This document shows positions 11,381 through 29,873 of a stretch of 33,397 bases of DNA, piece by piece. The notes below the pieces were generated by a model. That model was given only the letters and a program-made list of their open reading frames with translations, did not search any database and was not told where the DNA came from. Positions within the stretch are counted from its first letter, which is position 1. Each line of letters starts with the position of its first letter. A program made the translations under genes and the position numbers. Origin of the DNA: Thermodesulfovibrionales bacterium (GTDB lineage Bacteria; Nitrospirota; Thermodesulfovibrionia; Thermodesulfovibrionales; UBA6898); assembly GCA_020056455.1 (NCBI GenBank), contig JAGVHR010000036.1, forward strand, positions 1-33,397, in the 5' to 3' direction.

Positions 11381-12352
11381 GTGTTTCCATATCAGCGGCC
11401 GAGAAGGCTCAGGAAAAACGAAACGATCCGGAGAATGGTGAGGGAAACCTCTCTTTCTCCGGATAATTTTATCTATCCGCTTTTTGTCACCTTCGGCAAA
11501 AACGTGCGCAGGGAGATCAAGTCCATGCCGGGCTGCTATCAGGAGTCCGTGGATATGGTCACGAAACATGCAAAAGAGGTCTTCTCGCTCGGTATACCCG
11601 CGGTCATCCTGTTTGGCATTCCTGAGCAAAAAGACGAGATCGGATCAGGTGCCTTTGACCCTCATGGCGAAGTCCAGAAAGCGATCAGGGCGATTAAAAA
11701 CAAAGTGCCTGATCTCTATGTCATTACTGACGTCTGCATGTGCGAATATACAAGTCACGGCCACTGCGGCATCGTGAAAGACAGCGACGTCCAGAACGAC
11801 CCTACACTTGAACTCCTCGCAAAAGAAGCTGTCTCCCATGCTCAGGCCGGCGCTGATATGGTTGCTCCTTCCGACATGATGGACAACAGGGTCGAGACTA
11901 TCAGACTCGCACTGGATGAAGAAGGATTTCCTGAAATACCAATTATGAGCTATGCCGCAAAATACTCATCTGCGTTCTATGGCCCTTTCAGAGAGGCTGC
12001 AGAATCAACACCGCTGTTCGGAGACAGGCGCACTTATCAGATGGACCCTGCCAACAGGAGAGAGGCGCTGAAGGAAGTCGCCCTTGATATCGAGGAGGGC
12101 GCTGACATCGTCATGGTCAAGCCGGCAATGACCTATCTCGACATAATCTCTGATGTTAAAGAGAGCTTTGAAGTCCCTGTTGCAGCCTATAATGTAAGCG
12201 GCGAATACTCCTGCATCAAGGCAGCCGCAAAGCTCGGGTGGATAGACGAAGAGAGAGCCATGATGGAACTGCTTATATCCATCAAACGGGCCGGCGCAGA
12301 CCTCATACTCTCCTACTTCGCAAAAGACGCTGTGAGGCTCCTGAATAAATGA
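11381..12352 (+). CDS. hemB: Delta-aminolevulinic acid dehydratase (porphobilinogen synthase), Zn-type cysteine motif
   Basis: [14 protein letters not shown] zinc motif, catalytic Lys contexts [14 protein letters not shown] and [10 protein letters not shown]. Confidence 0.96.
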
Positions 12353-12410: not shown

Positions 12411-12596
12411 TTAGTCGCTCCAGCTGATCGCCTGAACAGGGCAGATGTCTATAGCTTCCTGGCAGTTGCAGCTGCTGCATTTGTCAGGGCCAACAACCCA
12501 GGCCTTATCATCCCTCATCTGAAATACCTCCGGGCAGACCTCCGGGCAGGAACCGCAACCTATGCACGTTTCATAATCAATAACAGGCTTATCCAT
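12411..12596 (-). CDS. Small [4Fe-4S] ferredoxin
   Basis: 61 aa; [15 protein letters not shown] ... [18 protein letters not shown]. Confidence 0.88.
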
Positions 12597-12635
12597 AACA
12601 GGTCCCTCCTTGCGTAACTGTTTTCTGATAGGGAT

Positions 12636-13142
12636 TTACGCCCAAGGCGTACCGCCATCCACCATGCTATGCTCCTCCCACATGAACCAGTTGCCCGTAT
12701 CAGTGAGGAAAGAATATGTATTGGAAAATATACGAAAGTGTTGTTCTTCCGCTCTGATGAGGTGCTCGAAAAGCGCCTTCTCCTTTGGAGACTGCACGTC
12801 ATTGAGCAGGCCTCTGTAGAGATCAGCGCTCTCTTTTTCCATACCCATGGCAATGCTGAGGACCTCGATCTCGTCAGTGGTCGCGCCGATACCTGAAACA
12901 AGGTCATTTTTATGCGCTTCGAAAGCTGTCTCAATATGCTTCAGAGGGCTCAAAACCTCCCGCACCTTTAGATCCAGACCTTCCATGATGCATTTCAGAT
13001 CATCAAGATGCTGCTGCTCATCCTCCGCGATCGAAAGAAACATCTTCTTCCCAAAGGGATGGCTCGTTTTACCGGCAGCCTGCCGGTAAAAGACAATGGC
13101 ATCAGTCTCTGTTTTTATACCCAGCTTGATTGCGTTCATCAT
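12636..13142 (-). CDS. Ferritin-like/rubrerythrin-type diiron protein
   Basis: ATG at 13142 with AAAGGAGG upstream (ORF-track start 13241 too long); TDAIVFYRQAAG ... SIAEDEQQHLDDL ... ESADLYRGLL ... LIRAEEQHFRIF (E, ExxH repeats). Confidence 0.82.
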   Translation of the reverse strand: MMNAIKLGIKTETDAIVFYRQAAGKTSHPFGKKMFLSIAEDEQQHLDDLKCIMEGLDLKVREVLSPLKHIETAFEAHKNDLVSGIGATTDEIEVLSIAMGMEKESADLYRGLLNDVQSPKEKALFEHLIRAEEQHFRIFSNTYSFLTDTGNWFMWEEHSMVDGGTPWA

Positions 13143-13241
13143 GTAGCCTCCTTTTATCCCCAGTATACCACGCAAATTGACTAAACCTTCTATTGCTCGA
13201 AGTTCGCGCTGATAACCTATTACCCCCGTCTCCCAGGGCAT

Positions 13242-13514
13242 TTAAAAAGGCAGTGAATCCCTTGAAAAAATCGGATGCACGCTGATCACAGCCTCCAGCG
13301 CCTGGATCTCCCTGGCGGTGTTTGCTATGACATGGATATCGTCCGTATCCATCAGAAGCGCTATCCGGTTCCCTACAACTCCATGGATGCTGACATGGGC
13401 CTTCATCGCAAGTGAGAGCGCCAGCTCCGCAGAAGCGCCTTCCTCTGTTTGCACAATCAGCCCTATCGTGTCCTTTATGTGCCTTTCGTCAGTCCTCCAG
13501 CCCATTGCGTCCAC
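13242..13514 (-). CDS. NapD-like small chaperone-fold protein (second copy)
   Basis: 90 aa; beta-alpha-beta pattern, SIHGVVGNRIALLMDTDDIHVIANTAREIQALEAVISVHPIF; position in nap-like cluster. GTG 13514 or ATG 13505 start. Confidence 0.6.
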   Translation of the reverse strand: MDAMGWRTDERHIKDTIGLIVQTEEGASAELALSLAMKAHVSIHGVVGNRIALLMDTDDIHVIANTAREIQALEAVISVHPIFSRDSLPF

Positions 13515-13520
13515 CGTTGC

Positions 13521-13787
13521 TCAGGAATTGGGGGAAGGCATATTCTCCATGTCCTCATCGCTGCCTTCAAGACTAAAGTAGGTAAGCTGGACACTCCTGA
13601 CTCCTGCTACGCTATTGAGAGCCTCCAATTCGTTTTTTACCTCAGTCGCGGTCTCCCGTTCGATCAGGAAAATGACCTTTTCGGCATTGACGCCGCTTAA
13701 CTCCACATTCCGCGTCTGAAATCCCTGGATAACCAGATTTACATCCTCCACTGCGTTTGCTTCAACAAATCCGCTCGCAAAGATCAT
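13521..13787 (-). CDS. NapD-like small chaperone-fold protein (first copy)
   Basis: ATG 13787 preceded by GGAGGT overlapping the napH stop; ...LNSVAGVRSVQLTYFSLEGSDE resembles the NapD C-terminal VEGVLAVSLVYH segment. Confidence 0.7.
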   Translation of the reverse strand: MIFASGFVEANAVEDVNLVIQGFQTRNVELSGVNAEKVIFLIERETATEVKNELEALNSVAGVRSVQLTYFSLEGSDEDMENMPSPNS

Positions 13788-13789
13788 AT

Positions 13790-14695
13790 TCACCTCCAAA
13801 ACCTTAAGCTGACGATTTTACCCTTTGTGGCACATCCCTCGGCACACCTGCCGCAGTATATGCAATTAACGTCCCTGAGAGAAGACCGGTCAATATTCCT
13901 CGCGATCTTCACCCCCATGTAGCATTGCTGGTCGCAGAGGCTGCATTCCCCGCAGACTCCCTCTGTGAAGGCAAGCCTCAAAAGGCTCACCTTGTTAAAA
14001 AGACCGTATATCCTGCCGATCGGGCAGAGCCCCCTGCACCAGAACCTCGGGAAGAAGTATTCCAGGACAAGAAGTGCGGCTATTGTCCCTCCTGAAAACA
14101 CAATAACCTCCGGCTCAACAGGAAATCCAAGCCCAAAAGAAACTGTTCCGGTAAGAAATCTGAAGAAATTTGTCAGATGCGAAAAATAGTTGGTAAATAC
14201 CGGGACACCCATCACCCCTGAAGCAATGAGAAAACTCCCTACGACCGCATACCCCCAAACAGGGGATATGTTCGGAGTTTTACGAGGCTTTCTTCCCGTC
14301 TTCCCGATGACTTCAAAGAGAAAGTCCATAGGGCAGACCCAGCCGCAAAAAGCCCTGCCAAGTATGAGATACATACCAAGAACAGGCACTACAGCTCCGA
14401 AGGCAGCCAGGGTAAAATCTCCTGACGCCGTTAGACTCTCTGTATAAGCAAAGACGTCAAGGATTTTCACAAACCATACTGCAACAGAACCGCCAAGCCC
14501 TCCCACAAGGATTTTTATCCTCACAAACTGCAAAAGAAAAAGCATAATTATGCCCAGCGCAACAAACCGCCTCAGCCTTGACAACTTCAGAGACGACTGA
14601 CGGACAACAGATGAGGGAGCCTGAATCTCGGGGCCTGAATGCTTCAATCTGTCAGTTGCCATATCTGAGTCGTCATTGTTTTTAACGGTATTCAC
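13790..14695 (-). CDS. napH: NapH-like polyferredoxin membrane quinol dehydrogenase subunit
   Basis: TM helices, FCGWVCPMDFLFE and FWCRGLCPIGRIYG (CxxxCP pair), CGECSLCDQQC and CIYCGRCAEGC clusters. Start GTG 14695 (14 nt overlap with napG) or ATG 14662; ORF-track start 14824 lies inside napG. Confidence 0.88.
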   Translation of the reverse strand: MNTVKNNDDSDMATDRLKHSGPEIQAPSSVVRQSSLKLSRLRRFVALGIIMLFLLQFVRIKILVGGLGGSVAVWFVKILDVFAYTESLTASGDFTLAAFGAVVPVLGMYLILGRAFCGWVCPMDFLFEVIGKTGRKPRKTPNISPVWGYAVVGSFLIASGVMGVPVFTNYFSHLTNFFRFLTGTVSFGLGFPVEPEVIVFSGGTIAALLVLEYFFPRFWCRGLCPIGRIYGLFNKVSLLRLAFTEGVCGECSLCDQQCYMGVKIARNIDRSSLRDVNCIYCGRCAEGCATKGKIVSLRFWR

Positions 14696-15443
14696 GCTCA
14701 ACGAGCCTTCCCTTTGCCATAATCTGAGGCAGGTTCTGTCCATATACAATTGCATACCTCTGCTCACCCTGCATGGCCATGAGTTTTCGGGAGTCAGCAA
14801 CATATTGCCCCTTGACCCGCTCATACTGCTTTTTTGTCACGACCTTGATGGCCGAGCCGCCAAGCGGACAGTATTTTACACAAAGACCGCACCCGACGCA
14901 GTTGTCGTTGATATAGGGCTGGTTGCCCCATTCACCGTTATAAAAATCAAATATACTACCTCCCATTGGACAGGCCTTGCTGCAGGAAAGGCAGACATCT
15001 CCGTTCCAGCCAAAGCAGAGAGAAAAATCGATAAGCGCCATCCCCATGCTGACCTTCTCTTTTTCCGTCTTCTTCAGCGCGCCTGTGGGGCACTGTCCGG
15101 GGCATTCCATGCATAGGGCACAGGGGAAGTCTCTCATGTCCCTGATTTGCGGCGTGCCGAAATTCCTGATGTCTTTAAGCCCCGCAACAGCAACAGCATC
15201 GTATTTCATAACATGACAGACATTTACGCAGACCCCGCAGCTGATGCATTTTGCCCTGAACTGTTTTTCAGGGAGTGCCCCGGGCGGTCGAATGGACCCG
15301 CCCACCGGAAAGATGGAGAGCGGACCTGCAACTCCTTCACCGGAGTCAGGAGGCTGATCTGAGCATGAGACCGCACTTCCAAAAAGCGCCAGGGCACTGC
15401 CGGTAACAGACAACCCGAGAAAGGCCCTTCGTGTAATTTGCAT
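14682..15443 (-). CDS. napG: NapG-like periplasmic ferredoxin (MauM/NapG family)
   Basis: TAT signal MQITRRAFLGLS at ATG 15443; four Fe-S motifs (CISCGVCVNVC, CALCMECPGQC, CLSCSKAC, CVGCGLCVKYC); GSIRPPGALPE. TTG 15521 is an alternative start. Confidence 0.88.
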   Translation of the reverse strand: MQITRRAFLGLSVTGSALALFGSAVSCSDQPPDSGEGVAGPLSIFPVGGSIRPPGALPEKQFRAKCISCGVCVNVCHVMKYDAVAVAGLKDIRNFGTPQIRDMRDFPCALCMECPGQCPTGALKKTEKEKVSMGMALIDFSLCFGWNGDVCLSCSKACPMGGSIFDFYNGEWGNQPYINDNCVGCGLCVKYCPLGGSAIKVVTKKQYERVKGQYVADSRKLMAMQGEQRYAIVYGQNLPQIMAKGRLVEREYR

Positions 15444-15513
15444 GGCCGTGTCAGCAAAAAGTCCAAGGGCCTGGTGTTTGCCCCCGGCCTCCCGGACCCT
15501 TTGCCGCGGCTTG

Positions 15514-18500
15514 TCAGACAATGATCTTACCTGGCTCAGCCTGGACAGACCTTGTCTTGCCCTTATAGATCTTTACTGCGAACATCTTATAGTCTGCCTG
15601 GAAGCTGAAGGGATCAAAAGAATCCCTCATGATCATATTTATCAACTTGTACTCGTCAAACCATGGCACAAAAACATAATCATGCCTCGGGCCTCCAGTA
15701 TGTCTTGCAGGGTCAAGGACCTTGGCTGGGAGTTGGATCTTCCCCCTGGGCGACTCGACAATAACTGCATCGTTGTTTTTGATCCCGAGTTTGTTCGCAA
15801 GAATTTCGCTCAGCTCAACATATGCGCCGGGGACTGCCCGCGCAAGCTCAGCCACCCTCGTTGTCATTGATCCTGTGTGCCAGTGCTCCACCACCCTGCC
15901 TGTACAAGCCCCGTATTTGTAGTCAGTAGTGTCTATGATCATTAGTTTACTGCCATCAGCCTTTGTATACTCATGCCGGAGGTTATGAAACTCTGCAGGG
16001 CTCAGGGCGATATTTTTCAGGGCGTTGATGTCCTTCTCAGGATCTCCGATGACATTTGCAGTAAACTTTGTTATCTGGTCGTAAGGCGCGGCGCTGTTGT
16101 CGTTCACCTTTGCGGGATTGAATTTCCGCTCTAATACTTCGACGGTTTTATGCTTCACGAACTGCTTCCCATCGAATTTGCAGGCCCACCACGGGTTGGC
16201 CCAGGCGATTGCGCGGCCGTCCCAGCCAGGCGCCTTACGGGTCTTGCCGTCAGGAGTCGGGATATCGATCATGCCGTTGATAAAGGCATTTGAATTGTAG
16301 AAGCTTGCATACCACCCCTTCGGAACATTTTCTGCCTTGTGGTATTCAGTATCCGCCTTCATATCATTGAGATTTTTTTCAAGCCATACGCCGTAAACCG
16401 GGTTGAATTCCTTCATGTTCTTGAGATAACCGGCGGTTATCTTGTCGATATGCGGGTCATAGGGATAGGCATACTGTATCTTGGACTGGTATTTGTCATA
16501 TCGTTTTTTCACGTCATCACTGGTATGGTATTCAGCAGGAAGCGGGATGCGATATCCGTGGTTCTGCTCAAGCAGCATCTTTCTATTCATACCGCTGAAG
16601 TCATAGCCCGTGCCTTTGGACAGGGTCATGAGTTCTTCCCATATATTCGACGTGAACTCCCTGTTCCATTCCTTTGTCTTTGCAGCCACGATGGTCTTTT
16701 TCATCCAGTCAACACCGTCATATTTCTCAGGCCAGAACTGTGAGATGTGCCCTTTCGGGACAAGCCCTTTTTCCTCAAGCCTCCTCATAATCAGGGCAAA
16801 GATCGTATGGTCCGGGATCGTATTGCCATAGGGCTCAATCACCTGCTTGATGACCTGATAGCGTCGCTCCAGGTTACCGAAGACAAACTCCTTTTCATAC
16901 CAGCTCGACGCGCCGAGCACCACGTCCGAAACCATTGTAGTTGCATTCGGAAACGCCTCGAGAGTCACCACAAGCGGCCAGGCCTGGCCTTTGGTCGCTG
17001 CTGCACAGGCAAGCCGGTATGGCCAGGCATAGGGCAGGCTCTGGCCGGCATTCACGGTTGAAATGAACTGCACCTTGATCTGGCCTGCTCCGAGCCTCCT
17101 GAACATCTCGATGGTATGGGGGCCAGGCTTGTCGTGGATCTTGATCCTTTCAGTTTCGCTCTTGATGGCAGCCTCTGACATGCCCTGTTTTTTCATATAT
17201 GCAGCCGCCCTGTCAGCCCATATCTTCTCGACCGCAGACCTGTGCAGAGGGTTTGCCACGAGCCGTCCGTAGGGCAAGGCATGGCAGAGAGCGCCCGGCG
17301 CCCTGATGCCGCCGCAGGCATTCGGCTGGCCGGTAAAGCTATAGGAATGCCTGCCGGGTTTTACGGTCTTGCCGGTGATCAGATTCAGCATATGAAGAGA
17401 AGCATTTGTCCATGTGCCCTGGAGTTTCTGGTTGACACCCATGCACCATGCTGACATTGTATAGCCCTCTGCATACCATTTCGCAGCAAGACGGAGGGCC
17501 TCAGGCCCGCTGATCTTTTTCCAGGTCTTTGTCGGTCTGTCATAGACAAGCGGAGATTCGCCCTCAAAAATGATATCCGACACCTTCTCCGGCTTATAGT
17601 CCTCAAGAAACTTCAGGAATATGGCAAACCCCTTATAAAGGTCTTTCATAACATCATCTTCTGACGCATATTTGCTTTTGAGGTTCGGGTAGGTCTTTCT
17701 CGGCTCTGCAGAATAGGTAAGGTCCCATGCAGCGTCCCGCGTCCCGCCGTAGATTGTCTTGATCCAGGTCTTCTTCACATCCTCATGGATGCCGAAACTC
17801 ACATGCCGCTCGATAAATTTCCTGTCGAGATATTTCCATTTCGCAGTAACAGTCCCTTTTTCAATATCGGCCTTTGCGCCATCCATTTCGTGGGTGATGA
17901 TATACGCCAATGAGTTGATCAGTACAAGGTCCCTGCCGGTTGCAAAGGGAAGCCATAGGTCAGCGATCGTTCCGGAACGGGTCTTCCTCGGATCAGCAAG
18001 GATCACCTTGACCTTGTCCGGATTCTTTGTCTTCAGGGCCGCCATCCTGTTGAAGAGTATTGGATGCGCCTCTGCAGTGTTGCTGCCGATGAGAAAAAAG
18101 GTGTCGGCATGTTTACCGAAATCAGGATCAGGCACATCGATATCGTCAAGGCATCCGTAAGGCTCGTCCTTCCCAAAGGTATAGAGATAACCTACAACAG
18201 CAGACGCCATGCACATCCTGGGCTGGCCCTCGATCGCATTGTTTGCGATAGCGCCTCCGCCCTTGAACGCCTTGTTCATGATGTGTGTCTCCTCTGTCCC
18301 AAGTTGTCCGCTGCCATAATAAGCCACGCTGTGCTTGCCATTGTCCCTGACAGACTTCTCCACGCTGTCTGCCACAAAATCTATCGCATCTTCCCATGGC
18401 ACAAGGACAAAGTTCTCCTTCAGATCGACTTCCGAAGGTTTCAGCCCACGAGGGTCCTTTGTCGTTTTTCCCTGTATGACCCTGGGAGAGTTATGAAGAT

Positions 18501-18852
18501 CGGGTTTGCCGGTCTTTGGATTGATCCATTCCTTCCTGATCAGGGCGCCTTTGGGCCTTTCCTTGTAAGCAATCGCCTTATGGAGATAAAAACCCTTTGT
18601 ACAGAGGACTCCGCGATTCACCGGGCTTTTGAGATCGCCTTTTATTGCTACCACTCGTGTTACTTTGCCTGCTGCATCGGTTTCGCAATCCGCAACCATG
18701 GTGCATCCAACTGCACAGAATCTGCACTGCCCTACAGGCACTGATGTTATAGGATAGGCAGCAAAAAGGTCTTTGGGTCCGGCAAGGCCAGCGGCAGCTG
18801 CTGCTGTTGCAATAGCGCTCGCCTTGAGAAAATCCCGCCTGCTAAAATACAT
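15514..18852 (-). CDS. napA: NapA-like periplasmic molybdopterin oxidoreductase (putative nitrate reductase), unusually long (1112 aa)
   Basis: TAT signal SRRDFLKAS; [4Fe-4S] motif CRFCAVGC...C; RMCMASAVVGYLYTFGKDEPYGCLDDID with putative Mo-Cys; MGVNQKLQGT; SFTGQPNACGG; GRVVEHWHTGSMTTRVAELARAVPGAYVE. Substrate not proven. Confidence 0.85.
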   Translation of the reverse strand: MYFSRRDFLKASAIATAAAAAGLAGPKDLFAAYPITSVPVGQCRFCAVGCTMVADCETDAAGKVTRVVAIKGDLKSPVNRGVLCTKGFYLHKAIAYKERPKGALIRKEWINPKTGKPDLHNSPRVIQGKTTKDPRGLKPSEVDLKENFVLVPWEDAIDFVADSVEKSVRDNGKHSVAYYGSGQLGTEETHIMNKAFKGGGAIANNAIEGQPRMCMASAVVGYLYTFGKDEPYGCLDDIDVPDPDFGKHADTFFLIGSNTAEAHPILFNRMAALKTKNPDKVKVILADPRKTRSGTIADLWLPFATGRDLVLINSLAYIITHEMDGAKADIEKGTVTAKWKYLDRKFIERHVSFGIHEDVKKTWIKTIYGGTRDAAWDLTYSAEPRKTYPNLKSKYASEDDVMKDLYKGFAIFLKFLEDYKPEKVSDIIFEGESPLVYDRPTKTWKKISGPEALRLAAKWYAEGYTMSAWCMGVNQKLQGTWTNASLHMLNLITGKTVKPGRHSYSFTGQPNACGGIRAPGALCHALPYGRLVANPLHRSAVEKIWADRAAAYMKKQGMSEAAIKSETERIKIHDKPGPHTIEMFRRLGAGQIKVQFISTVNAGQSLPYAWPYRLACAAATKGQAWPLVVTLEAFPNATTMVSDVVLGASSWYEKEFVFGNLERRYQVIKQVIEPYGNTIPDHTIFALIMRRLEEKGLVPKGHISQFWPEKYDGVDWMKKTIVAAKTKEWNREFTSNIWEELMTLSKGTGYDFSGMNRKMLLEQNHGYRIPLPAEYHTSDDVKKRYDKYQSKIQYAYPYDPHIDKITAGYLKNMKEFNPVYGVWLEKNLNDMKADTEYHKAENVPKGWYASFYNSNAFINGMIDIPTPDGKTRKAPGWDGRAIAWANPWWACKFDGKQFVKHKTVEVLERKFNPAKVNDNSAAPYDQITKFTANVIGDPEKDINALKNIALSPAEFHNLRHEYTKADGSKLMIIDTTDYKYGACTGRVVEHWHTGSMTTRVAELARAVPGAYVELSEILANKLGIKNNDAVIVESPRGKIQLPAKVLDPARHTGGPRHDYVFVPWFDEYKLINMIMRDSFDPFSFQADYKMFAVKIYKGKTRSVQAEPGKIIV

Positions 18853-18906
18853 CTGAAGCCTCCTTCCAATACCCTCTTAGGAGAGGTTCTGTCGGTTTAT
18901 ATAAAA

Positions 18907-19398
18907 TTATTTGGCAGAAACAAGCGAATAACTGTTAGAGCCCACCTTGTCGCCTGCGGATGAGTAATCACCATTGGCTGCTATTGCCATAACGCTCATG
19001 CCTGCTTCACCCTTCCTGCCCGGCGCCTTCCATATAAAGGACCACTTCCTGAGCGATGAGCCCTGCTGGGTATGGGTCAGTATTTTGTCGCTCAGCTGCG
19101 TATTCTTTCTGTCCTTTACAACCAGTTCTCCGGAGGTCACCTCAACCGCAAAACCGCCGGCAACGTCGCCCAGACTCTGGTGATCGCTGGTGATCACAAT
19201 GGTCAGGTCATATCTTTTGCCCGGCACAAAGCTCTTCGGCAGACCTGTGATCTTCACCATGCCCGGCACAATATCTCCCTCATGGCAGTTTATACATTCA
19301 AAGTTCGGAGCGCTGTTGTTGTGGCCATGGCCGATTGATACATAACCAGCAGAAATTACTGCGAAAAAGAAAAGTATGATAATGACATTTTTTTTCAT
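18907..19398 (-). CDS. Secreted monoheme cytochrome with reeler/choice-of-anchor-like beta domain
   Basis: Signal peptide; one CXXCH (CINCH, 19282-19296) followed by FVPGKRYDLTIVITSDHQSLGDVAGGFAVEV. Confidence 0.72.
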   Translation of the reverse strand: MKKNVIIILFFFAVISAGYVSIGHGHNNSAPNFECINCHEGDIVPGMVKITGLPKSFVPGKRYDLTIVITSDHQSLGDVAGGFAVEVTSGELVVKDRKNTQLSDKILTHTQQGSSLRKWSFIWKAPGRKGEAGMSVMAIAANGDYSSAGDKVGSNSYSLVSAK

Positions 19399-19494
19399 GT
19401 TTCCCCCGTTTCAAGCCCGGTTATGAATAACTGATATCCTGAACTCAGACAGAAGGGGACGGGGACCAGGCCCCGCCCCCCTCTGCCGGACTGA

Positions 19495-21159
19495 CTATTT
19501 CTTTGCTGCAAGCGCGTCATTGATGAGTTTAATGCCGGCCTGGGACTCGTTCATCGACCTGGCCAGAGACTCTCTGGCCATCTCCGGATTATGGAAGCCG
19601 TCAGAGTTTTCTGCTGTCCAGTATTCCCACAGGATGTGGGCCTTCAGATGCTGGTCCTGCCCCTTTTTGATCACATCATCGCCGAGGCCTGCCTTCTTGC
19701 CCTCAACGATCTTATCAATGAGCGCTGAAAGGAAAAATTCAGCCTTCCTCATTTTGCCCCTTATATGGGCCTTCACTGAATCGATGGAGTACCGGGCCAT
19801 CTCCTCGGTCCACTTTGGATGGCACTTCAGACATGTCTCCCTGAGCTGGACCTTCGGAGTAACGGCAAAGTGCGAGGTGAATATCTTGCCGTTCTTTGCC
19901 TTCATCTTTGGCGTGTGGCAGCCGTCGCAGCCGACGCCGGCCTTGCCGTGCTTTGAGTTATAGTAACTTTCCACCTCCGGGTGCTGGGCCTTCCAGAGAA
20001 GTCCGCCGGTCAGGCCATGCTTGAAATCAAGAAAATTGATCTGGGTTACGTAGTGGTCATAGAGGCCGAATACATCCTTGAACGGAAAGTGGTTTGTCCT
20101 CTGGTCAGTCATCTTGACCGGCTCTCCGGTCTTGGTGTCTGTGCCAGGGTTGCAGTTATACTCAACATGGCACTGGCCGCACTGGAGCCTGGTGTCATAT
20201 TTATCGAGGATGGCGATCTTCCGCTTAAAGCCCCTGACGCCCATATCAATGACTTTAAAGCCGGTCCGTCTGGGGTCTTTGTGCCAGAGAGTGTCAGCCT
20301 CTTTTCTTGTGAGCGCCTGAATGAGGCCATCGCGCACTATCCTGGGCTTTGCAGCATGAGGATCGTGGCAGGTAAAGCAGTTCAGGCCATGCTGTATGTC
20401 CTTTACAAACTCAACGACATTCGAGGTGCGGGACCAGGTCGTTCCTTTTTCAGGCTCCCCCATGTATGCCCACTTCAGGATCTGGTCCTGGGTCTTGCAC
20501 TGCAGACAGACAGGGTTGGCTGCAGCGGCTGATTGAGGGATAAACGTTTTATGCTCCTTGCTGTCAGGCTGGGTATCATAAAGCACATCCCATGCCCTTC
20601 CTTTGTCGAAAATATAATTCCAGCCGTTTTTACCCTGGAACCTGCCGCCGTATGCCCTGTCTACGATCAGGTGGTCGATAAGCATCCAGTTGTGGCTTCT
20701 GGTCAGATCGTGTTCCTTGGTAAACCCATGTCCTGACATGAGCTTGTCCCAGAAGGGATTCGGGGCCCTGTTCGTCAACTGGGATTTTTCATCCCTTGCC
20801 GGACGATGGTACGCGCTCTGCATGAAGCTGTCGATCTGCTCCTTATGACACTGGCCGCACGCCTCCCACGACATATTGGTCACAGGCCTGGTGTCCGGCC
20901 CTGGAGCTTTCAGGTGCTTTTCGAGACCGCTATGACATTTTGAACAATTTACCCCGGAATGTTTGCCTGACTTGTGAAGATCCTTGACCGTAGCATGACA
21001 ACCATAACAGGTATCGGCTTTGACTGGTTTTTCTGCCATCGGATTTTTCATCTCCGCTTCCCTGTAGGTTTTTTCCGCCTCAGCAGTCGAATAATAGATA
21101 CCGCCCATCAGTACAAAAACTATAAATACTATCAAAGCTGCGCATGACTTCTTTTTCAT
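19495..21159 (-). CDS. Octaheme cytochrome c nitrite reductase-like protein (ONR/NrfA superfamily)
   Basis: Seven CXXCH plus one CXXCK as 4th heme motif (CLQCK, 20494-20508); NrfA-like CGQCHVEYN, HPEVESYYNSKHGKAGVGCDGCHTPKMK, FTSHFAVTP; signal/anchor at N-terminus. Confidence 0.88.
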   Translation of the reverse strand: MKKKSCAALIVFIVFVLMGGIYYSTAEAEKTYREAEMKNPMAEKPVKADTCYGCHATVKDLHKSGKHSGVNCSKCHSGLEKHLKAPGPDTRPVTNMSWEACGQCHKEQIDSFMQSAYHRPARDEKSQLTNRAPNPFWDKLMSGHGFTKEHDLTRSHNWMLIDHLIVDRAYGGRFQGKNGWNYIFDKGRAWDVLYDTQPDSKEHKTFIPQSAAAANPVCLQCKTQDQILKWAYMGEPEKGTTWSRTSNVVEFVKDIQHGLNCFTCHDPHAAKPRIVRDGLIQALTRKEADTLWHKDPRRTGFKVIDMGVRGFKRKIAILDKYDTRLQCGQCHVEYNCNPGTDTKTGEPVKMTDQRTNHFPFKDVFGLYDHYVTQINFLDFKHGLTGGLLWKAQHPEVESYYNSKHGKAGVGCDGCHTPKMKAKNGKIFTSHFAVTPKVQLRETCLKCHPKWTEEMARYSIDSVKAHIRGKMRKAEFFLSALIDKIVEGKKAGLGDDVIKKGQDQHLKAHILWEYWTAENSDGFHNPEMARESLARSMNESQAGIKLINDALAAKK

Positions 21160-21607: not shown

Positions 21608-22291
21608 TTATTCTCTGAATTTATACCCCACACCGGCCACGGTTATAATAAATTCCGGTTCTGAAGGGTTTTCCTCGATCTTCTGTCTGAGGTGCTGCAG
21701 ATGAACATCAATCGCCCTGCTCCATGAATAGAGCTTCGCGTCACCCCATATCTTCTTCCTTATAAACTCTCTGGTTATTACCTCCCCTCTGTTTGACGCA
21801 AACAGGCTGAGAAGCTCAAACTCCTTTGGGGTAAGTTCCACATTCTTCCCATTTAAAGTAACCTGATGGGCCTTCATGTCGATTTCAAGACCGTTTATAG
21901 TGAGCGCCTTGTCAACAGGCACGCTCCTTCTCAGACAGGCCTTGATGCGGGCTATCAGTTCAAGAGTTTCAAAGGGCTTGACTATATAGTCATCAGCGCC
22001 GCTTTCAAGCCCGGTCACCTTGTCGGAAATACTGTCCCTCGCTGTAAGCATAATCACCGGGACCCTGTGGTTTTCTTCTTTAATCAGCCTGCATATCTCC
22101 AGGCCGTCTCCATCGGGCAGCGTCAGGTCAAGTATGATAAGGTCCGGGACCTGATCATCGAGTATTGCCCTGGCCTTTGTCCAGCTGTCTGCCGTAACAG
22201 CAGTATACCCATACAACTCAAGATTCGCCCTGAGCACCTTCAGAATATCAGGGTCGTCATCTATTACAAGCAGTTTCTTTTTCTTGTCCAT
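21608..22291 (-). CDS. OmpR/PhoB-family response regulator
   Basis: Receiver domain (LLVIDDDPDILKVL, DLIILDLTLPDGDG, VIMLTARDS, VKPFETLEL) and winged-helix output (LTPKEFELLSLFASNRGEVITRE). Start ATG 22291 (MDKKKKLLVIDDD). Confidence 0.93.
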   Translation of the reverse strand: MDKKKKLLVIDDDPDILKVLRANLELYGYTAVTADSWTKARAILDDQVPDLIILDLTLPDGDGLEICRLIKEENHRVPVIMLTARDSISDKVTGLESGADDYIVKPFETLELIARIKACLRRSVPVDKALTINGLEIDMKAHQVTLNGKNVELTPKEFELLSLFASNRGEVITREFIRKKIWGDAKLYSWSRAIDVHLQHLRQKIEENPSEPEFIITVAGVGYKFRE

Positions 22292-23894
22292 AAATACCCG
22301 TCCGAACTTTAGGAATCCTGAAATAAAAGCTGCTTCCCCTGCCCGCCTCGCTGTTGACTCCGATCCGCCCTCCATGGGCCTCCACAATGCCCTTGCAGAT
22401 TGCAAGACCAAGGCCTGTGCCGTTCTTTGTTCCCTTTGAATAGAACTGATCGAATATCAGGGGAATATCACCCTCGGCAATGCCGCTTCCGGAATCCGTT
22501 ACCGTTAAAAGCGCGTGACCATTGTCCTCTTTAACAGAGACTATTATTTCCGAGGATTCCGGGCTGAAGTTCAGAGCGTTGGAAATCAGATTGATCAGCA
22601 CCTGTTTTATTCTGTCCTCATCAGCAGAAACGGTCACGTCGTCAGACTCAAGCCGCATACGCACTCCCTTCTGCTCAGCCTCTGATCTGAAACCGATGCT
22701 CACCTCATTTAAAACCTCTTTAAGCGGGACTTCCCTGAAATGCATCCCGAACTCTCCCAGTTCAATCCGTTCATAGTCGATTATATTATTTACGAGCCGT
22801 ATCAGCCGTTCTGCGTTTTTCTTGATTACATCAAAAAATACTGCTGCGTCATCGCCGCCCCCATCGCCCTTAAGGGACATGCGCACAGACAGATAGTCCA
22901 TTGCCCCTTTTATGGAGGTCAGAGGCGTCCTCAACTCATGGGAAATCTTTGCTATAAAGTCGGATTTTGACCGGTTCAGTCTGAGCAGGGCTTTATTTTT
23001 TTCAATAAGCTCCTGTGTTGCTGACTCTATCTTTTCCTGCAGACATCCATGATAGCTGTCTATGGCCTTTGCCATAGCTACAAAGGACCTGCTAAGGTCC
23101 TCGAGTTCGTCGCCGGTCTCAATGACCGGCACGTCGGAATTCCCGTGTCCTGAAAAATCCAGCATATGTGCCCTGATCCTGCTGATCGGCATGATGACCA
23201 TCTTCCTTGTTATCAAATAATGGGCGATCATCAGAACAGCGACTGTGGCAAGGCCGCCCAGCAGCATATAGCGTCTCTCTGTCGCTATAACGCTGAAGGC
23301 ATAATCCATAGGCACGCTTATGCTGATGGCACCCCTCACATCTCCCACCCTGTAGCCCTGCTTCAGATGACATTCAAGACAGGCCTGTTCAACATACAAG
23401 GGGGCCATATAGCGGAAAAAGACTGCCCTGCCGATCTTCTCAATCCTGGAAGCTTCACCGGTCTTCCTTTCTTCAAATTCACGGAGCGCTGACCTCTCAA
23501 AGGCATCAGGCGCGTTTTCGGGATTAATCAGCTTGAGGCTTGTAATATGAAATGAAAAAAGCTTGTCTCTCTGCGCATATTTGGAAAGTTGTTTGGTTAC
23601 CATGGCAGGGTTTTCCTTCACATAACGTCTGCCTTCCCTGTCGATCATAAGGGGGTCTTTCAGATAAAGATTCGGCTCAACCCACGGCAGTTTTTCCACA
23701 AAAACGCCTCCATGGTCCGCGACCCATCTTCTTGTAATGACGATCTGCTGAAACAGCGCCTTGGCCTGAATTTTTGTCTGCTCGATAACAAGGTCTTCAT
23801 ACCTCCCGGCAATAATGCCGAGGGTTATGCCCATGACAATGAGAAGGACAAGCGCAGTCGCAAGAATATATTTCAGCCCGAGCTTAAGCCGCAT
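22257..23894 (-). CDS. Sensor histidine kinase with extracytoplasmic DUF3365/Tll0287-like c-heme domain
   Basis: N-terminal TM, VITRRWVADHGGVFV, heme motif CLECH (23367-23381), HAMP, HisKA SHELRTPLTSIKG, HATPase (NLISNALNFSP, DSGSGI, GTGLGLAICKGIV). 35 nt overlap with response regulator. Confidence 0.92.
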   Translation of the reverse strand: MRLKLGLKYILATALVLLIVMGITLGIIAGRYEDLVIEQTKIQAKALFQQIVITRRWVADHGGVFVEKLPWVEPNLYLKDPLMIDREGRRYVKENPAMVTKQLSKYAQRDKLFSFHITSLKLINPENAPDAFERSALREFEERKTGEASRIEKIGRAVFFRYMAPLYVEQACLECHLKQGYRVGDVRGAISISVPMDYAFSVIATERRYMLLGGLATVAVLMIAHYLITRKMVIMPISRIRAHMLDFSGHGNSDVPVIETGDELEDLSRSFVAMAKAIDSYHGCLQEKIESATQELIEKNKALLRLNRSKSDFIAKISHELRTPLTSIKGAMDYLSVRMSLKGDGGGDDAAVFFDVIKKNAERLIRLVNNIIDYERIELGEFGMHFREVPLKEVLNEVSIGFRSEAEQKGVRMRLESDDVTVSADEDRIKQVLINLISNALNFSPESSEIIVSVKEDNGHALLTVTDSGSGIAEGDIPLIFDQFYSKGTKNGTGLGLAICKGIVEAHGGRIGVNSEAGRGSSFYFRIPKVRTGIYGQEKETACNR

Positions 23895-24031: not shown

Positions 24032-25459
24032 TTAGAAACCTGCTACTGCGAGGCGGGCAAAATTTATGACCATGGAGGGCTGGATACCGATGAAGACAAC
24101 TGCCGAAACAGTGACGGCAAGCGCAAGACCGATTGCAGGTGAGCTGTTCAATTCGACCGTTGTCCTGGGCTCTTTCATATACATGAGCATCACGATCCTG
24201 AGATAGAAGTATGCTGATATGGCGCTGAACAATACCGCTATTATAACAAGCCAGGTATAGCCCGCATTTACAGCTGACATGAAAAGATAGAATTTGCCCA
24301 TGAACCCGGCCATAGGAGGGATACCGGTAAGCGAAAACATAAATACGAGCATAAGCGCCGCTGCCATGGGATGGGTTTTGGAAAGCCCCTCATAGTCTGC
24401 GATATCCTCTCCCCTGGCCCCCTCTGTCCTGAGCATGATCACTACAGCAAAAGCTCCCATATTCATAAAGGCATAAATAAACATATAGTTGAGCACGCTT
24501 GCCAGGCCGACAGGGCCGCCTGATATGATTCCAAGGAGCATGTATCCGGCATGGGCGATCGAGGAATAAGCAAGCATCCTTTTAATGTTCGTCTGGGAAA
24601 GAGCAACAATATTTCCGACCGCCATGGTAAGGATGGAAATCGGGATGAGTATTGCGGCCCAATCCATATGAGCAGAACCAAAGGCAGTGAGAAAGACCCT
24701 GCCCAGCACCGCAAAACCCGCGGCCTTCGGGCCCACAGACATAAAGGCCGTAATCGGAGTTGGCGCGCCCTCATAGGCGTCAGGCGCCCACATATGAAAC
24801 GGCACTGCGGCGATCTTGAATGAAAAAGCTGCCGCAAACATGATCATTGAGAGCGTAAGCGCCGGGTTGGATATCAGATTGTGGCCTGCAATATAGGCAG
24901 CAATCTCCTTCAGATTGGTTGTCCCGGTCAGGCCGTAGATCAAGGAGGCGCCGTAAAGAAGTATTGCCGAAGCAAACGCGCCGAGCAGCAGATACTTGAT
25001 CGCAGCCTCATTCGACCTGATATCATAGCGGATAAAACCGGCGAGTATATACGTGCTCAGGGCCATGAGTTCAAGCCCAAGATACAGGACAATAATGTCG
25101 GCAGCGGATGCCATGAGCATCATGCCGAGGGTGGAAAATAGAATAAGGCTGTAGTATTCCCCGAAGTTGATACGCATTACTGCAAGGTACTTTGGAGAAA
25201 TCAATACAGTGAGGATGAGATTCACGATAAATATAAGCTTAAAAAACGTACTATACCCGTCAGATACGAACATACCGCTGAAGGTTGTTCCCATGGAGCC
25301 GATGAGTGTGAAGGAAACAACTCCCGCGGTGATAATGGCAAGAAGTGCGAGCGTCTCCTTCCTCTTGATCACCAGCTCTGCCATAAGCAGGAGGACCGCT
25401 ATGATCGTCATGACAATTTCAGGCACCACAGGATTAAGATCAGGCATTACAAAAGGCAT
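24032..25459 (-). CDS. nuoN: NADH-quinone oxidoreductase subunit N
   Basis: 475 aa multi-TM antiporter-like subunit; AAVPFHMWAPDAYEGAPTPITAFMS; position last in nuo operon. Confidence 0.95.
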   Translation of the reverse strand: MPFVMPDLNPVVPEIVMTIIAVLLLMAELVIKRKETLALLAIITAGVVSFTLIGSMGTTFSGMFVSDGYSTFFKLIFIVNLILTVLISPKYLAVMRINFGEYYSLILFSTLGMMLMASAADIIVLYLGLELMALSTYILAGFIRYDIRSNEAAIKYLLLGAFASAILLYGASLIYGLTGTTNLKEIAAYIAGHNLISNPALTLSMIMFAAAFSFKIAAVPFHMWAPDAYEGAPTPITAFMSVGPKAAGFAVLGRVFLTAFGSAHMDWAAILIPISILTMAVGNIVALSQTNIKRMLAYSSIAHAGYMLLGIISGGPVGLASVLNYMFIYAFMNMGAFAVVIMLRTEGARGEDIADYEGLSKTHPMAAALMLVFMFSLTGIPPMAGFMGKFYLFMSAVNAGYTWLVIIAVLFSAISAYFYLRIVMLMYMKEPRTTVELNSSPAIGLALAVTVSAVVFIGIQPSMVINFARLAVAGF

Positions 25460-25520
25460 TCAGAACCCCCGGGGCTGAAATTATTGTATTCGCTGTTTTT
25501 CATTTCTTGTCTCTCAATTC

Positions 25521-27047
25521 TTATTTAATGAGTCCCAGGATGTCAGCCTGACCTGCTCCGCTGTTTACCCTCTCAATCAGGTGCTGGACAGTCGGGTGCA
25601 TGAAGCTCAGGAACGCATTGGGATAAATACCGATCCAGAAGATCAGAATTACCATCGGCATCAGCGCAACAAGCTCTCGTCCGTTTAAATCAGAGAGCCC
25701 CGCCACCTTCGAGCTGGTCTCCATGAAAAAGACCCTCTGGTAGAGCCAGAGCATATAGCCTGCGCCGATGATGATGCCGGTAGCTGACAGCACCCCTGCC
25801 CACTGGCTCGCCTTGAACGCGCCAAGGAGGATCAGGAACTCGCCCACAAATCCGTTCGTAGCAGGCAGGCCTATCGAAGCAAGAGTAAAGACAATAAAGA
25901 AAGAAGCATAGACCGGCATCACCGAGGCCACGCCCCCGTAGTCCGCAATGTCCCTCGTGTGGGTCCTGTCATAAATAATGCCTACGCTAAGGAAGAGTGC
26001 GCCTGTCACAATGCCATGGTTCAGCATCTGGAGAATTCCGCCCTCAATACCCTGCACATTCAGGGCAAAGATGCCGAGGGTCACAAAACCCATATGGCTC
26101 ACTGAGCTGTATGCGATAAGTCTCTTCAGGTCTGTCTGGGCCAGGCAGATAACGCCTCCGTAGATGATCGCGATGACCGACAGGGTCAGCATAACAGGTG
26201 TCATGGCCCGTGTTGCGTCAGGCAGGAGAGGCATCGAAAACCTGAGGAAGCCGTATGCGCCCATCTTGATAAGCACTGCTGCAAGAATAACGCTGCCGGC
26301 AGTCGGGGCCTCGGTATGAGCGTCAGGCAGCCATGTATGCACCGGGAACATGGGGACCTTGACCGCAAAGGCAGCAAAAAAGGCCCAGAAGAGCATAAGC
26401 TGCATCTTGAATGGATAGGCCGCGTTCGTAAGTTCCAGGATATTGAATGTCCGACCGGCATAGAAGTAAAGGACGATGATACCTACAAGCATCAGGACGC
26501 TTCCCACGAGGGTATAGAGAAAGAACTTCATTGCGGCATAGATCCTGTTGGGCCCTCCCCAGACACCGATGAGCAGAAACATAGGGATAAGCATCGCCTC
26601 CCAGAAGACATAAAAAAGCATGAAATCAAGGGAGCAGAATACGCCTATCATCGCGCTTTCCATCACAAGAAGGGAGATAAAAAACTCTTTTGTCTTCATC
26701 CTGACCGACTCCCAGGAAATAAGCACGCAGAGAATGGTGACAAGTGTTGAAAGAAGCACAAAGAGTACACTGATGCCGTCAAGCCCGAGATGGTAGTTCA
26801 TGTTCAGATATGGTATCCATTCATGTTGCTCGACGAACTGCATAAGATGCGTTGTCTTGTCAAAGTTCGCAAAAAGCGGCAGCGACAGGGCAAAAGTCGC
26901 GATACTGAAAAGCAGGCCCACCATTTTAACCGCTCTGTCATTCGCTCTGCTTATGAAAAGTATGAGGGCTGCTCCTGCCAGCGGCAGAACTATGAGCATG
27001 CTAAGAATCGGAAAACCTGATGTATTGTTTATCGTCTGTTCCATCAT
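25521..27047 (-). CDS. nuoM: NADH-quinone oxidoreductase subunit M
   Basis: 508 aa; VPMFPVHTWLPDAHTEAPTAGSVILA, DLKRLIAYSSVSHMGFV. Confidence 0.96.
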   Translation of the reverse strand: MMEQTINNTSGFPILSMLIVLPLAGAALILFISRANDRAVKMVGLLFSIATFALSLPLFANFDKTTHLMQFVEQHEWIPYLNMNYHLGLDGISVLFVLLSTLVTILCVLISWESVRMKTKEFFISLLVMESAMIGVFCSLDFMLFYVFWEAMLIPMFLLIGVWGGPNRIYAAMKFFLYTLVGSVLMLVGIIVLYFYAGRTFNILELTNAAYPFKMQLMLFWAFFAAFAVKVPMFPVHTWLPDAHTEAPTAGSVILAAVLIKMGAYGFLRFSMPLLPDATRAMTPVMLTLSVIAIIYGGVICLAQTDLKRLIAYSSVSHMGFVTLGIFALNVQGIEGGILQMLNHGIVTGALFLSVGIIYDRTHTRDIADYGGVASVMPVYASFFIVFTLASIGLPATNGFVGEFLILLGAFKASQWAGVLSATGIIIGAGYMLWLYQRVFFMETSSKVAGLSDLNGRELVALMPMVILIFWIGIYPNAFLSFMHPTVQHLIERVNSGAGQADILGLIK

Positions 27048-28967
27048 CTACCTCAAAAGCATTACTGCAGCTATGATCAGGATGCCTGCCGCCATAATGG
27101 TCGCATAATGCTGCATAAGCCCTGTCTGCACCCTTCTCAAGCCGGCGCTGAATGCAGCAATGGAGTTCGGCACACCGTTGACAACGGCCTCGATGATACG
27201 GGCATCAGTAATGCCGATAAGGATATTCTTCGCAACCCAGATCGTAGGCCTGATAAGAATAAAACTATAGAGCTCATCGATATAATATTTATTAAAGAGG
27301 ACCCTATGCACTGCGCTGAACTGCTGCGAGATCCTGGCCGGCAATTCCGGTCTCGTCATATACATAAACCAGGCCAGACCGATACCGGCAAAACCGACGC
27401 TGACTGAGATTGCCATTACCATCCACTCCTCCGCGTGAGTTCCGTGCCCCTCAGCATGGCCGAGCACAGGCTTCATAAACTCTGCGAAGTTCGCATGGCC
27501 GCCAAGGATATGGGGTATGCTCACCCAGCCGGAAGCTACAGCTCCGACACAGAGAAGCATAAGCGGTATGGTCATGGATTTTGGAGATTCATGGAGGTGG
27601 TGTTCCTGCTCATGGGTCCCCCGGAATTTTCCGTGGAAAGTGAGGAATATGAGTCTGAAAGAATAGAAAGCCGTAAGGAAAGCAACCGCTGTACCCATCA
27701 GCCAGACAAGTTTGCCGACAGGGCTCGGTCCTGAATAGGCAAGCCAGAGGATCTCATCTTTACTGAAGAAGCCTGCCAGACCTGGAAAGCCTGCAATACT
27801 AAACGAGGCGATAAGCATGGTAAAGTAGGTCACAGGCATGTATTTCTTCAGGTTGCCCATCTTCTGAATATTGAGTTCTCCGCCCATCGCATGCATAACG
27901 CTCCCTGCGCAGAGAAAGAGGAGCGCCTTGAAAAATGCATGGGTATACAGATGAAACACGCCTGCCGAATACGCGCCGACACCGCATGCAAGAAACATAT
28001 AACCCAGCTGGCTCACGGTTGAATACGCAATAATCCTCTTCAGATCGTTCTGAACAAGGCCTATCGTAGCTGCAAAGAGCGAGGTCACTGCGCCTGTAAG
28101 GGCAACGACCATAAGCGCTGTTTCCGAAAGGCTGAAGATCGGGCTGCAACGTGCGACAAGAAAAACACCGGCAGTGACCATGGTTGCAGCATGGATGAGT
28201 GCGCTGACCGGAGTCGGGCCCTCCATGGCATCAGGCAGCCAGACATGAAGAGGCATCTGAGCTGATTTGCCGATCGATCCGCAGAAAAGCAGAAGCGCAA
28301 TAAGAGTCATAAGATGCACGTCATATCCAAGAAATTGGACTGTTGCATCCGCAAAATTTCCGGCCTGGCTGAATACCGGCTCATAATATACAGTGCCGAA
28401 GGTAAGGAATATGACAAAGATGCCGAGGCCGAACCCGAAATCTCCGAAACGGTTCACTATGAACGCCTTTTTCCCTGCGTCCGAGGCTGACTTCTTATTG
28501 AAGTAATAGCCGATCAGGAAGTAGGAACAGAGGCCCACGCCTTCCCAGCCGAAATACAGTTGCAGGAAGTTGTTCGCCATGACCAGCATGAGCATCGAGA
28601 AGGTAAAGAGACTAAGATATGAAAAAAACCTGTAATAACCTGAATCGCCGTGCATATAGCCGACCGAATAGATATGGATCAATGTGCTGCAGGTCGTCAC
28701 AACAATGAGCATCACAACAGTGAGTTCGTCGATAAGAAACCCTACAGATACCTTGAAGCCGCCTGAAAGAATCCAGGTATAAAGGTCATAGTTGAACTTC
28801 CTGCCTGAGAGGACCTCGATCAGCGCTGTGACTGCCAGGACCCATGAGCCCGCCACTGCAAGGATTGAAATCCAGTGGGCCTTTTCCTTTAAATATTTCC
28901 TGCCGAAGACAATATTGATCATAAAGGCGGCAAGCGGCAGGAATGGTATCAATGCATGACTGTTCAT
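27048..28967 (-). CDS. nuoL: NADH-quinone oxidoreductase subunit L
   Basis: 639 aa; QMPLHVWLPDAMEGPTPVSALIHAATMVTAGVFL, NDLKRIIAYSTVSQLGYMF. Confidence 0.97.
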   Translation of the reverse strand: MNSHALIPFLPLAAFMINIVFGRKYLKEKAHWISILAVAGSWVLAVTALIEVLSGRKFNYDLYTWILSGGFKVSVGFLIDELTVVMLIVVTTCSTLIHIYSVGYMHGDSGYYRFFSYLSLFTFSMLMLVMANNFLQLYFGWEGVGLCSYFLIGYYFNKKSASDAGKKAFIVNRFGDFGFGLGIFVIFLTFGTVYYEPVFSQAGNFADATVQFLGYDVHLMTLIALLLFCGSIGKSAQMPLHVWLPDAMEGPTPVSALIHAATMVTAGVFLVARCSPIFSLSETALMVVALTGAVTSLFAATIGLVQNDLKRIIAYSTVSQLGYMFLACGVGAYSAGVFHLYTHAFFKALLFLCAGSVMHAMGGELNIQKMGNLKKYMPVTYFTMLIASFSIAGFPGLAGFFSKDEILWLAYSGPSPVGKLVWLMGTAVAFLTAFYSFRLIFLTFHGKFRGTHEQEHHLHESPKSMTIPLMLLCVGAVASGWVSIPHILGGHANFAEFMKPVLGHAEGHGTHAEEWMVMAISVSVGFAGIGLAWFMYMTRPELPARISQQFSAVHRVLFNKYYIDELYSFILIRPTIWVAKNILIGITDARIIEAVVNGVPNSIAAFSAGLRRVQTGLMQHYATIMAAGILIIAAVMLLR

Positions 28968-28970
28968 AAT

Positions 28971-29273
28971 CTATCCCTTCATCTCGTTCATTTCGTCAAC
29001 ATGCGCTGTCTGCTTGTTTCTGAAGAGCGCGAGAATTATCGCAAGCCCGATGGCAGCCTCTGCCGCCGCTACCGTAATGATAAAAAAGACAAATATATGC
29101 CCCCTCAGGTCCTGAAGAAAATGGCTGAAGGCGATGAAACTGATATTTACGGCATTCAGCATGAGCTCAGCCGACATGAACATGATAATGATGTTCTTCC
29201 TTGTCAGGAAGCCGAACATCCCTATCATGAAGACCGCGGCGCTCAGTAATAAATACCAGTTCAGAGGGACCAT
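28971..29273 (-). CDS. nuoK: NADH-quinone oxidoreductase subunit K
   Basis: 100 aa; [41 protein letters not shown]. Confidence 0.96.
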
Positions 29274-29358
29274 AACTCACTCCGTGAGAATTCAAGATTG
29301 AAAGTTAAAAATTTAAAATTCCTTAATCTATAGTTTTGAATCTCGAAGCTTCTTTTCA

Positions 29359-29871
29359 TCAACTCCTCAGCTTTCTTTTTGCAAGGACTATTGCGCCGAC
29401 AACAGCCACGAGCAATATCAGGGACGCTATCTCAAACGGAAACAGATATTCCGTATACAGGAGTGTGCCCAGCGCCTTTGTATGGGTCTCGCTTCTGATG
29501 ACATCGATCGAATACTTTCCAACCGGCCCCTGTACATATGAGCCGAGCGCGAGCGTTACGGCAATAAACAGAAGCCCGCTAACAAAGAGCCCGGCAGGCC
29601 ACGATCCGGCAAAACGCCTGCCGGCTATCTCTTCTTTCAGATTCAGCAGCAGCACGACAAAAAGGAACAGGACCAGTATGGCGCCCGCGTAAACGATCAC
29701 CTGGATAGCGGCAATAAACTCGGCATTCAGGAAAAGATACAGGCCTGCAATATGAAAAAAAAGCAGAAGCATCCACATAACGCTGTGCACCGGGTTTCTC
29801 CTGGTTACAACAAGCAGCGACAAAAGGACAATCATAACTGCATAGTATGCGAAAAAGAGTTGTTGCAACAT
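29359..29871 (-). CDS. nuoJ: NADH-quinone oxidoreductase subunit J
   Basis: 170 aa; VTRRNPVHSVMWMLL, AIQVIVYAGAILVLFLFVVLLL. Confidence 0.95.
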   Translation of the reverse strand: MLQQLFFAYYAVMIVLLSLLVVTRRNPVHSVMWMLLLFFHIAGLYLFLNAEFIAAIQVIVYAGAILVLFLFVVLLLNLKEEIAGRRFAGSWPAGLFVSGLLFIAVTLALGSYVQGPVGKYSIDVIRSETHTKALGTLLYTEYLFPFEIASLILLVAVVGAIVLAKRKLRS

Positions 29872-29873
29872 CT

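Follow-up and report, generated by a model that had tools for sequence, protein, structure and literature searches.

How electrons might reach a nitrate reductase and a nitrite reductase in a gene cluster that lacks NapB, NapC, NrfA and NrfH is the question raised by a stretch of DNA from Thermodesulfovibrionales bacterium (contig JAGVHR010000036.1, positions 1 to 33,397; hereafter the window), which belongs to a 2.59 Mb assembly of 263 contigs that is 92.2% complete. On the minus strand between positions 12411 and 21159, an earlier note made from the letters alone had named nine same-strand genes and read them as a self-contained pathway of nitrate-to-ammonium respiration. All nine open reading frames (ORFs) were verified as present and their families match the names given to them, in the transcription order octaheme nitrite reductase (ONR), monoheme protein, NapA-like enzyme (1112 residues), NapG, NapH, two NapD-like proteins, a rubrerythrin/ferritin-like protein and a small ferredoxin. 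The conserved module within this cluster consists of seven genes, namely ONR, the monoheme protein, the long NapA, NapG, NapH and one or two NapD. We consider a role in dissimilatory nitrate reduction to ammonium (DNRA) highly probable, as judged from protein families, catalytic residues, gene context and a homologue in Desulfurivibrio dismutans. To the scheme as a whole, a periplasmic DNRA module in which NapH and NapG would supply both NapA and ONR and the monoheme protein would be a dedicated NapA subunit or carrier, we assign a rough probability of 0.62. The genes of the module are listed below, in the order of transcription.

19495..21159, minus strand: ONR, predicted octaheme c-type ammonia-forming nitrite reductase, 554 residues, secreted (eight haem motifs, PDB matches, TvNiR residues)
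18907..19398, minus strand: monoheme reeler-fold protein, 163 residues, Sec-type signal, one CxxCH (CINCH at residue 35, Reeler orthologues, fold match, NapA as neighbour)
15514..18852, minus strand: long NapA-like predicted molybdenum nitrate reductase, 1112 residues, Tat signal, [4Fe-4S] cluster (PRK13532, 2jio, active-site residues, own clade)
14682..15443 (ORF to 15521), minus strand: NapG, ferredoxin-type, Tat-type signal (PRK09476, 96 bits, below cut-off)
13790..14662 (ORF to 14824), minus strand: NapH, membrane quinol dehydrogenase Fe-S subunit (TIGR02163, 116 bits, and PRK09477, 102 bits, both below cut-off; synteny)
13521..13787, minus strand: NapD-like chaperone 1 (PF03927, 27.4 bits against a cut-off of 28)
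13242..13514, minus strand: NapD-like chaperone 2 (PF03927, 31.7 bits, over cut-off)

Conservation of the module

Scanning GTDB genomes for the long NapA gave 27 loci, with identities of 67-89%, and the nearest named relatives are Nitrospirota, several of them Thermodesulfovibrionales. The monoheme gene is the immediate upstream neighbour of NapA in all loci that include the NapA start, and these span several phyla; NapG, NapH and NapD follow downstream wherever the sequence is long enough, sometimes several kilobases on. ONR adjoins the monoheme-NapA pair in 21 of the 27 loci; among the six without an adjacent ONR, two (L014 and L036) start too close to tell. In one of the 21 loci with an adjacent ONR (L016, 6433-8106), the ONR gene is in the opposite orientation to the monoheme and NapA genes. 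Across 396 Nitrospirota genomes, the long NapA is present in 23 and the monoheme gene in 23, with both in 22. The two exceptions to the pairing lie at contig ends: in G307 the contig stops after the first 175 residues of NapA, while the contig of G400 begins within NapA. The monoheme protein is therefore an obligate partner of the long NapA, paired with it in every locus with the NapA start.

The earlier note had proposed a synteny search, and the same gene order is indeed found in over 20 genomes from several phyla, which places the arrangement far beyond chance. The long NapA was not found in seven other species of the same genus. NapG has its best matches in PRK09476 and TIGR00397 and NapH in TIGR02163, below the curated cut-offs, with their order conserved in relatives. 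Syntenic orthologues of the first NapD are present in most loci with enough flanking sequence, and those of the second were seen in just two other loci (L017 and L024). The revised starts are likely to be ATG at 15443 for NapG, near 14662 for NapH, ATG at 13787 for the first NapD and 13139 for the ferritin-like protein; many NapG orthologues begin aligning at about residue 27.

The two reductases and the exchange of parts

ONR carries seven CxxCH motifs and CLQCK at residue 218, making eight haem motifs. Searched against the PDB, it matches best two octaheme nitrite reductases, 2zo5 (TvNiR, E 2.8e-161) and 8rv0 (E 4.2e-157), and residues 44-552 align with TvNiR and nearly as well with 8rv0, which was deposited as an octaheme nitrite reductase. 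TvNiR Lys188, Arg131, Tyr303, Cys305, Gln360 and His361 correspond to K222, R168, Y334, C336, Q392 and H393 of ONR, so that all six are kept; we take these TvNiR positions to be the Lys haem ligand, the catalytic Arg and Tyr, the Tyr-x-Cys pair and the Gln-His pair. The enzyme is thus predicted to take nitrite to ammonium in a six-electron step. Among the 396 Nitrospirota genomes, 61 have ONR, some of them carrying other NapA types, and it is common in Desulfuromonadia (67 of 146 genomes).

The NapA-like enzyme has a Tat signal (PF10518), an Fe4S4 motif (PF04879) with cluster cysteines C43, C46 and C50, and molybdopterin domains. Its closest structures are those of Desulfovibrio periplasmic nitrate reductase (Nap; 2jio, E 1e-116), and among models and structures alike, Nap matches rank above those to formate dehydrogenases. 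Desulfovibrio Nap Cys140, Met141, Gln346, Arg354 and Lys49 correspond to C214, M215, Q509, R517 and K86, which are invariant or nearly so in 27 long-NapA orthologues; the counterpart of C214 is the molybdenum-ligand Cys. The window enzyme is about 390 residues longer than that of Desulfovibrio, a feature on which the earlier note did not remark, and it does not reach the cut-offs of the curated NapA models, scoring 434 bits with PRK13532 (cut-off 904) and 408 with TIGR01706 (cut-off 930.55). As controls, a canonical 923-residue NapA belonging to the same taxonomic family reaches 1403 and 1369 bits, and a short NapA from the same order 729 and 687. A NapA tree separates the long, canonical and short enzymes into three clades, each with 100% ultrafast bootstrap, using a single distant formate dehydrogenase outgroup that sits on a very long branch and drew a program warning on long branches. 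The AlphaFold2 (AF2) model of the long NapA (pLDDT 64.7) is too poor to place the inserts, and a fold search gave Nap as nearest. Taken with its family, its gene context and the D. dismutans homologue, the kept residues make it very likely that the long NapA is a nitrate reductase.

The reductases around NapG and NapH differ from genome to genome. In the same genus and family as the window, ONR stands before a canonical 923-residue NapA followed by NapG and NapH, with NapB present, and in three genomes (G036, G128 and G071) it precedes a short NapA; the two loci that were read gene by gene, L105 and L113, encode a tetraheme protein in between. One genome (G335, L121 7376-9879) has NrfH (135.5 bits, cut-off 134.2) and NrfA (PF02335, 514 bits) in the place of ONR, before the monoheme gene, long NapA, NapG, NapH and NapD, and with the same two-component system as the window. 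In Candidatus Kryptonium (L026, 8447-17438), the monoheme gene, long NapA, NapG, NapH and NapD are followed by Rieske, cytochrome b and one octaheme HAO-like protein. An octaheme HAO-like protein is also encoded in G025 (L120, 5773-7197), about 1.5 kb upstream of the pair of monoheme and NapA genes; neither ONR nor NrfA was found in that genome. Mapped on the ONR tree, the NapA types are scattered, the long type requiring at least seven changes, whereas in the NapA tree each type forms one clade; genes for both reductases have thus been swapped while the NapGH core stayed constant. Long NapA from Desulfobulbaceae (L022 and L032, including Desulfurivibrio) nests with strong support among the Nitrospirota members of the long clade, a placement suggesting that the long NapA has moved between phyla.

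These partners bear on whether the long NapA might act mainly on another oxyanion or N-oxide, with ONR serving nitrite from elsewhere or another nitrogen compound. The widely missed NapA cut-offs, the deep separate clade with its large inserts and the existence of some carriers without ONR, such as G025, would fit that explanation. However, the partner of the long NapA is ONR in most loci, NrfHA in G335 and an HAO-like octaheme protein in L026 and L120, all of them plausible nitrite reductases, its active-site residues are kept and its D. dismutans homologue is induced by nitrate, so we regard a different main substrate as improbable. The nitrate-to-ammonium reading given in the earlier note is instead strengthened: the catalytic residues, the synteny, the replacement of ONR by NrfHA, the nitrate upregulation found by proteomics in D. 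dismutans and the association of ONR with two other NapA types together make nitrate-to-ammonium respiration very likely.

The monoheme protein, electron route and control

The monoheme protein has 163 residues, a signal sequence and a single haem motif. At E<=0.1, the Reeler family (PF02014) matches 20 of its 28 orthologues, with a best E of 2.8e-6; the window protein itself has no match, and its NCBIfam match, over cut-off, is the choice-of-anchor V domain. Its AF2 model is fairly confident (pLDDT 83), and the best PDB match by Foldseek is the reeler domain of human F-spondin (2zot, 3coo; E 3.7e-7, TM about 0.53 by query and 0.61 by target), so that the earlier description of the protein as reeler-like was well chosen. 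Weaker fold matches include cytochrome f, a beta-sandwich haem protein. The identity to F-spondin is about 14%, and the bacterial protein differs from it in adding the signal sequence and a CxxCH haem site. That motif is invariant in all 28 orthologues, and H109 and M137, each kept in 27 of 28, are candidate sixth haem ligands. Among the papers available for searching, none was found that links reeler-type cytochromes to nitrate reductase.

The earlier note had placed this protein in the position of NapB and NapC. NapB was not found in the 92%-complete genome of the window, nor over the cut-off in 32 genome records with the long NapA (some of them duplicates), in a search that detected the E. 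coli control. No pentaheme NrfA was found in the window's assembly, where ONR is the only PF02335 protein found, and no NapC/NrfH (PF03264) was found in the operon; the assembly is about 8% incomplete, so missing contigs could hide genes. The reported lack of NapB, NapC, NrfA and NrfH thus stands for the cluster and, for NapB and pentaheme NrfA, for the whole assembly. It does not extend to NapC/NrfH-type proteins genome-wide, as one deca-haem protein lies just at the cut-off (24.1 bits) and one weaker match was found, neither of them in the cluster; such proteins are also present in some other long-NapA genomes. A deca-haem protein that is anchored in the membrane and has an N-terminus like that of NapC/NrfH is encoded at locus L122 of the window's own genome (C48:23639-23812, minus strand) and may be an alternative quinol oxidase. 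Among the 396 Nitrospirota genomes, NapB occurs in 31 and the monoheme gene in 23 with an overlap of 0; this non-overlap was rejected as statistical evidence because its probability by chance is about 0.15.

In the scheme that we propose, menaquinol would be oxidised at the membrane by NapH and NapG, and electrons would pass to the long NapA, probably via the monoheme protein, for the production of nitrite. Electrons would also reach ONR, which would reduce nitrite to ammonium in the periplasm. The monoheme protein would be a dedicated subunit or electron carrier of the long NapA, in the role of NapB, or of NapM in Desulfovibrio, while the NapD proteins would mature the Tat-exported NapA. Since the monoheme protein is tied without exception to the long NapA, its suggested role as a stand-in for NapB and NapC is better grounded than before, and we judge it somewhat more probable than its opposite that the protein carries electrons.

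A different wiring would leave DNRA as proposed but have NapG feed NapA (and ONR) directly, the monoheme protein being structural, involved in maturation or protective, for example by binding nitric oxide or guarding NapA, with no part in respiratory electron transfer. Direct transfer from NapGH to NapA has been proposed for the NapB-less Desulfovibrio desulfuricans and Caldithrix abyssi (PMC5317091), NapG and NapH are both present in complete loci, and the F-spondin reeler, the closest solved fold, is not a redox protein. Against this stand a haem motif that never varies and two putative ligands that hardly do; moreover, where another Nap type occupies this operon context, it comes with NapB or with a small carrier of two or four haems. 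We consider direct feeding with a non-respiratory monoheme protein rather unlikely.

Several observations weigh against the proposed scheme with a monoheme carrier: the long NapA scores under half of the curated NapA cut-offs, its roughly 390 extra residues come with an AF2 model of low confidence, the mutual exclusion of NapB and the monoheme gene is within what chance would produce, and in D. dismutans ONR is unlinked and the paper on that species is silent on the monoheme gene.

Upstream of the module on the same strand, beyond the region 12411-21159, lie a response regulator and a histidine kinase that the earlier note overlooked. Response-regulator homologues with 53-70% identity flank 14 distinct long-NapA loci and are also found near ONR in L105, L115 and L117, loci with a short NapA or none, and the histidine kinase is conserved beside the module in relatives. 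The two-component system belongs with the module, which would be under the control of the haem-sensor kinase and its regulator. The remaining two genes of the original nine fared differently: the ferritin-like protein, the ferredoxin and hemB were found in none of the 31 related loci searched, and the first two were therefore rejected as module parts and are best seen as co-directional neighbours. Of the nine-gene cluster, then, seven genes are conserved. The genes on either side of these seven are as follows.

21608..22411, minus strand: OmpR-type response regulator (PF00072 and PF00486)
22257..23894, minus strand: histidine kinase with Tll0287-like sensor domain and CLECH c-haem motif (PF11845, 87 bits; HisKA, HATPase_c)
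12636..13139, minus strand: rubrerythrin/ferritin-like protein (PF02915, 56.6 bits)
12411..12596, minus strand: small ferredoxin (PF13370)

Further upstream of the two-component system, at 24032-33375 and on the module strand, are genes for complex I membrane subunits and a NuoG-like molybdopterin-fold protein. At the other side, hemB (ALAD, 11381-12352) is convergent toward the module end and is not conserved beside the module elsewhere. Promoter-like sites number 15 against 10.9 in shuffled controls and terminator-like sites 10 against 10.9, with no clear excess of either.

Comparison with known systems

DNRA keeps nitrogen in sediments and groundwater. Because the long NapA scores far below the curated models and the module has neither NapB nor pentaheme NrfA, surveys based on napAB and nrfAH genes would miss or misread it. 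If the monoheme protein were confirmed as the carrier, it would represent a new solution to the wiring of Nap systems without NapB and NapC, and since the reductases swap around a constant NapGH and the cultured D. dismutans has the NapA-monoheme pair, this wiring question is directly testable. More tentatively, with somewhat less than even confidence, the loci may represent a separate kind of periplasmic Nap: a deep clade of NapA of about 1110 residues whose extra segments would dock a dedicated reeler-fold c-type cytochrome, from a family of redox partners with no earlier link to nitrate respiration. Such a Nap would work with ONR, NrfHA or an HAO-type octaheme protein and would form an exchangeable cassette across phyla.

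The nitrite reductase itself resembles TvNiR (2zo5, 2ot4) over residues 44-552 and in all tested catalytic residues including the Tyr-x-Cys pair; it differs in that the ONR of the window is encoded in a NapA-NapGH operon. In Trichlorobacter, as described in PMC11972089, citing Sorokin et al. 2023, the Nap and ONR (TaNiR) genes are adjacent and functionally coupled for periplasmic nitrate-to-ammonium reduction. T. ammonificans and T. lovleyi thus share with the window nap genes beside ONR, and Desulfuromonadia loci show NapA, NapG, NapH and ONR. Such cases, together with Desulfurivibrio, which has NapAGHD plus ONR, raise the possibility that our cluster is simply one more case of the published Nap-ONR module, its monoheme gene being an unremarkable accessory. 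Among 20 Desulfuromonadia loci read, however, the four that carry Nap have a canonical NapA of 770-810 residues, NapG with or without NapH, and a small diheme protein whose gene precedes ONR; the long NapA and the reeler monoheme gene are both absent from these four. As the long, canonical and short NapA are also separate clades, we find this explanation very hard to sustain.

Among published Nap clusters are some that have neither NapB nor NapC and receive their electrons from NapGH or NapM (PMC5317091). D. desulfuricans (NapM) and C. abyssi (NapM, Rieske/cytochrome b, eHao) resemble the window in having no NapB and in the proposal that electrons pass via NapGH or a small dedicated cytochrome (PMC5317091). 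Their NapM is a tetraheme protein and not a monoheme reeler, and Caldithrix has an HAO-type octaheme protein instead of ONR; the Rieske, cytochrome b and HAO-like arrangement in Kryptonium is similar to the published Caldithrix cluster (PMC5317091). The cytochrome c-containing Nap of Sporomusa ovata was considered as a precedent and rejected, being a NapC-type system.

Another of the closest described systems is that of D. dismutans, which reduces nitrate to ammonium and has an operon NapAGHD without NapB or NapC, its NapA being strongly upregulated on nitrate (PMC12142623). This NapA (L032) is 73% identical to that of the window, and D. dismutans and D. alkaliphilus share with the window the same long NapA, the monoheme gene upstream, NapG, NapH and NapD, and the absence of NapB and NapC from the operon. 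The difference is that the ONR gene of D. dismutans (RS04220) is located away from the operon, and that the paper on that species makes no mention of the monoheme gene. The general scheme, with Nap beside ONR and Nap clusters without NapB or NapC, is thus already published, and the novelty lies in the clade of long NapA enzymes, in the monoheme protein as their obligate partner and in the swapping of parts.

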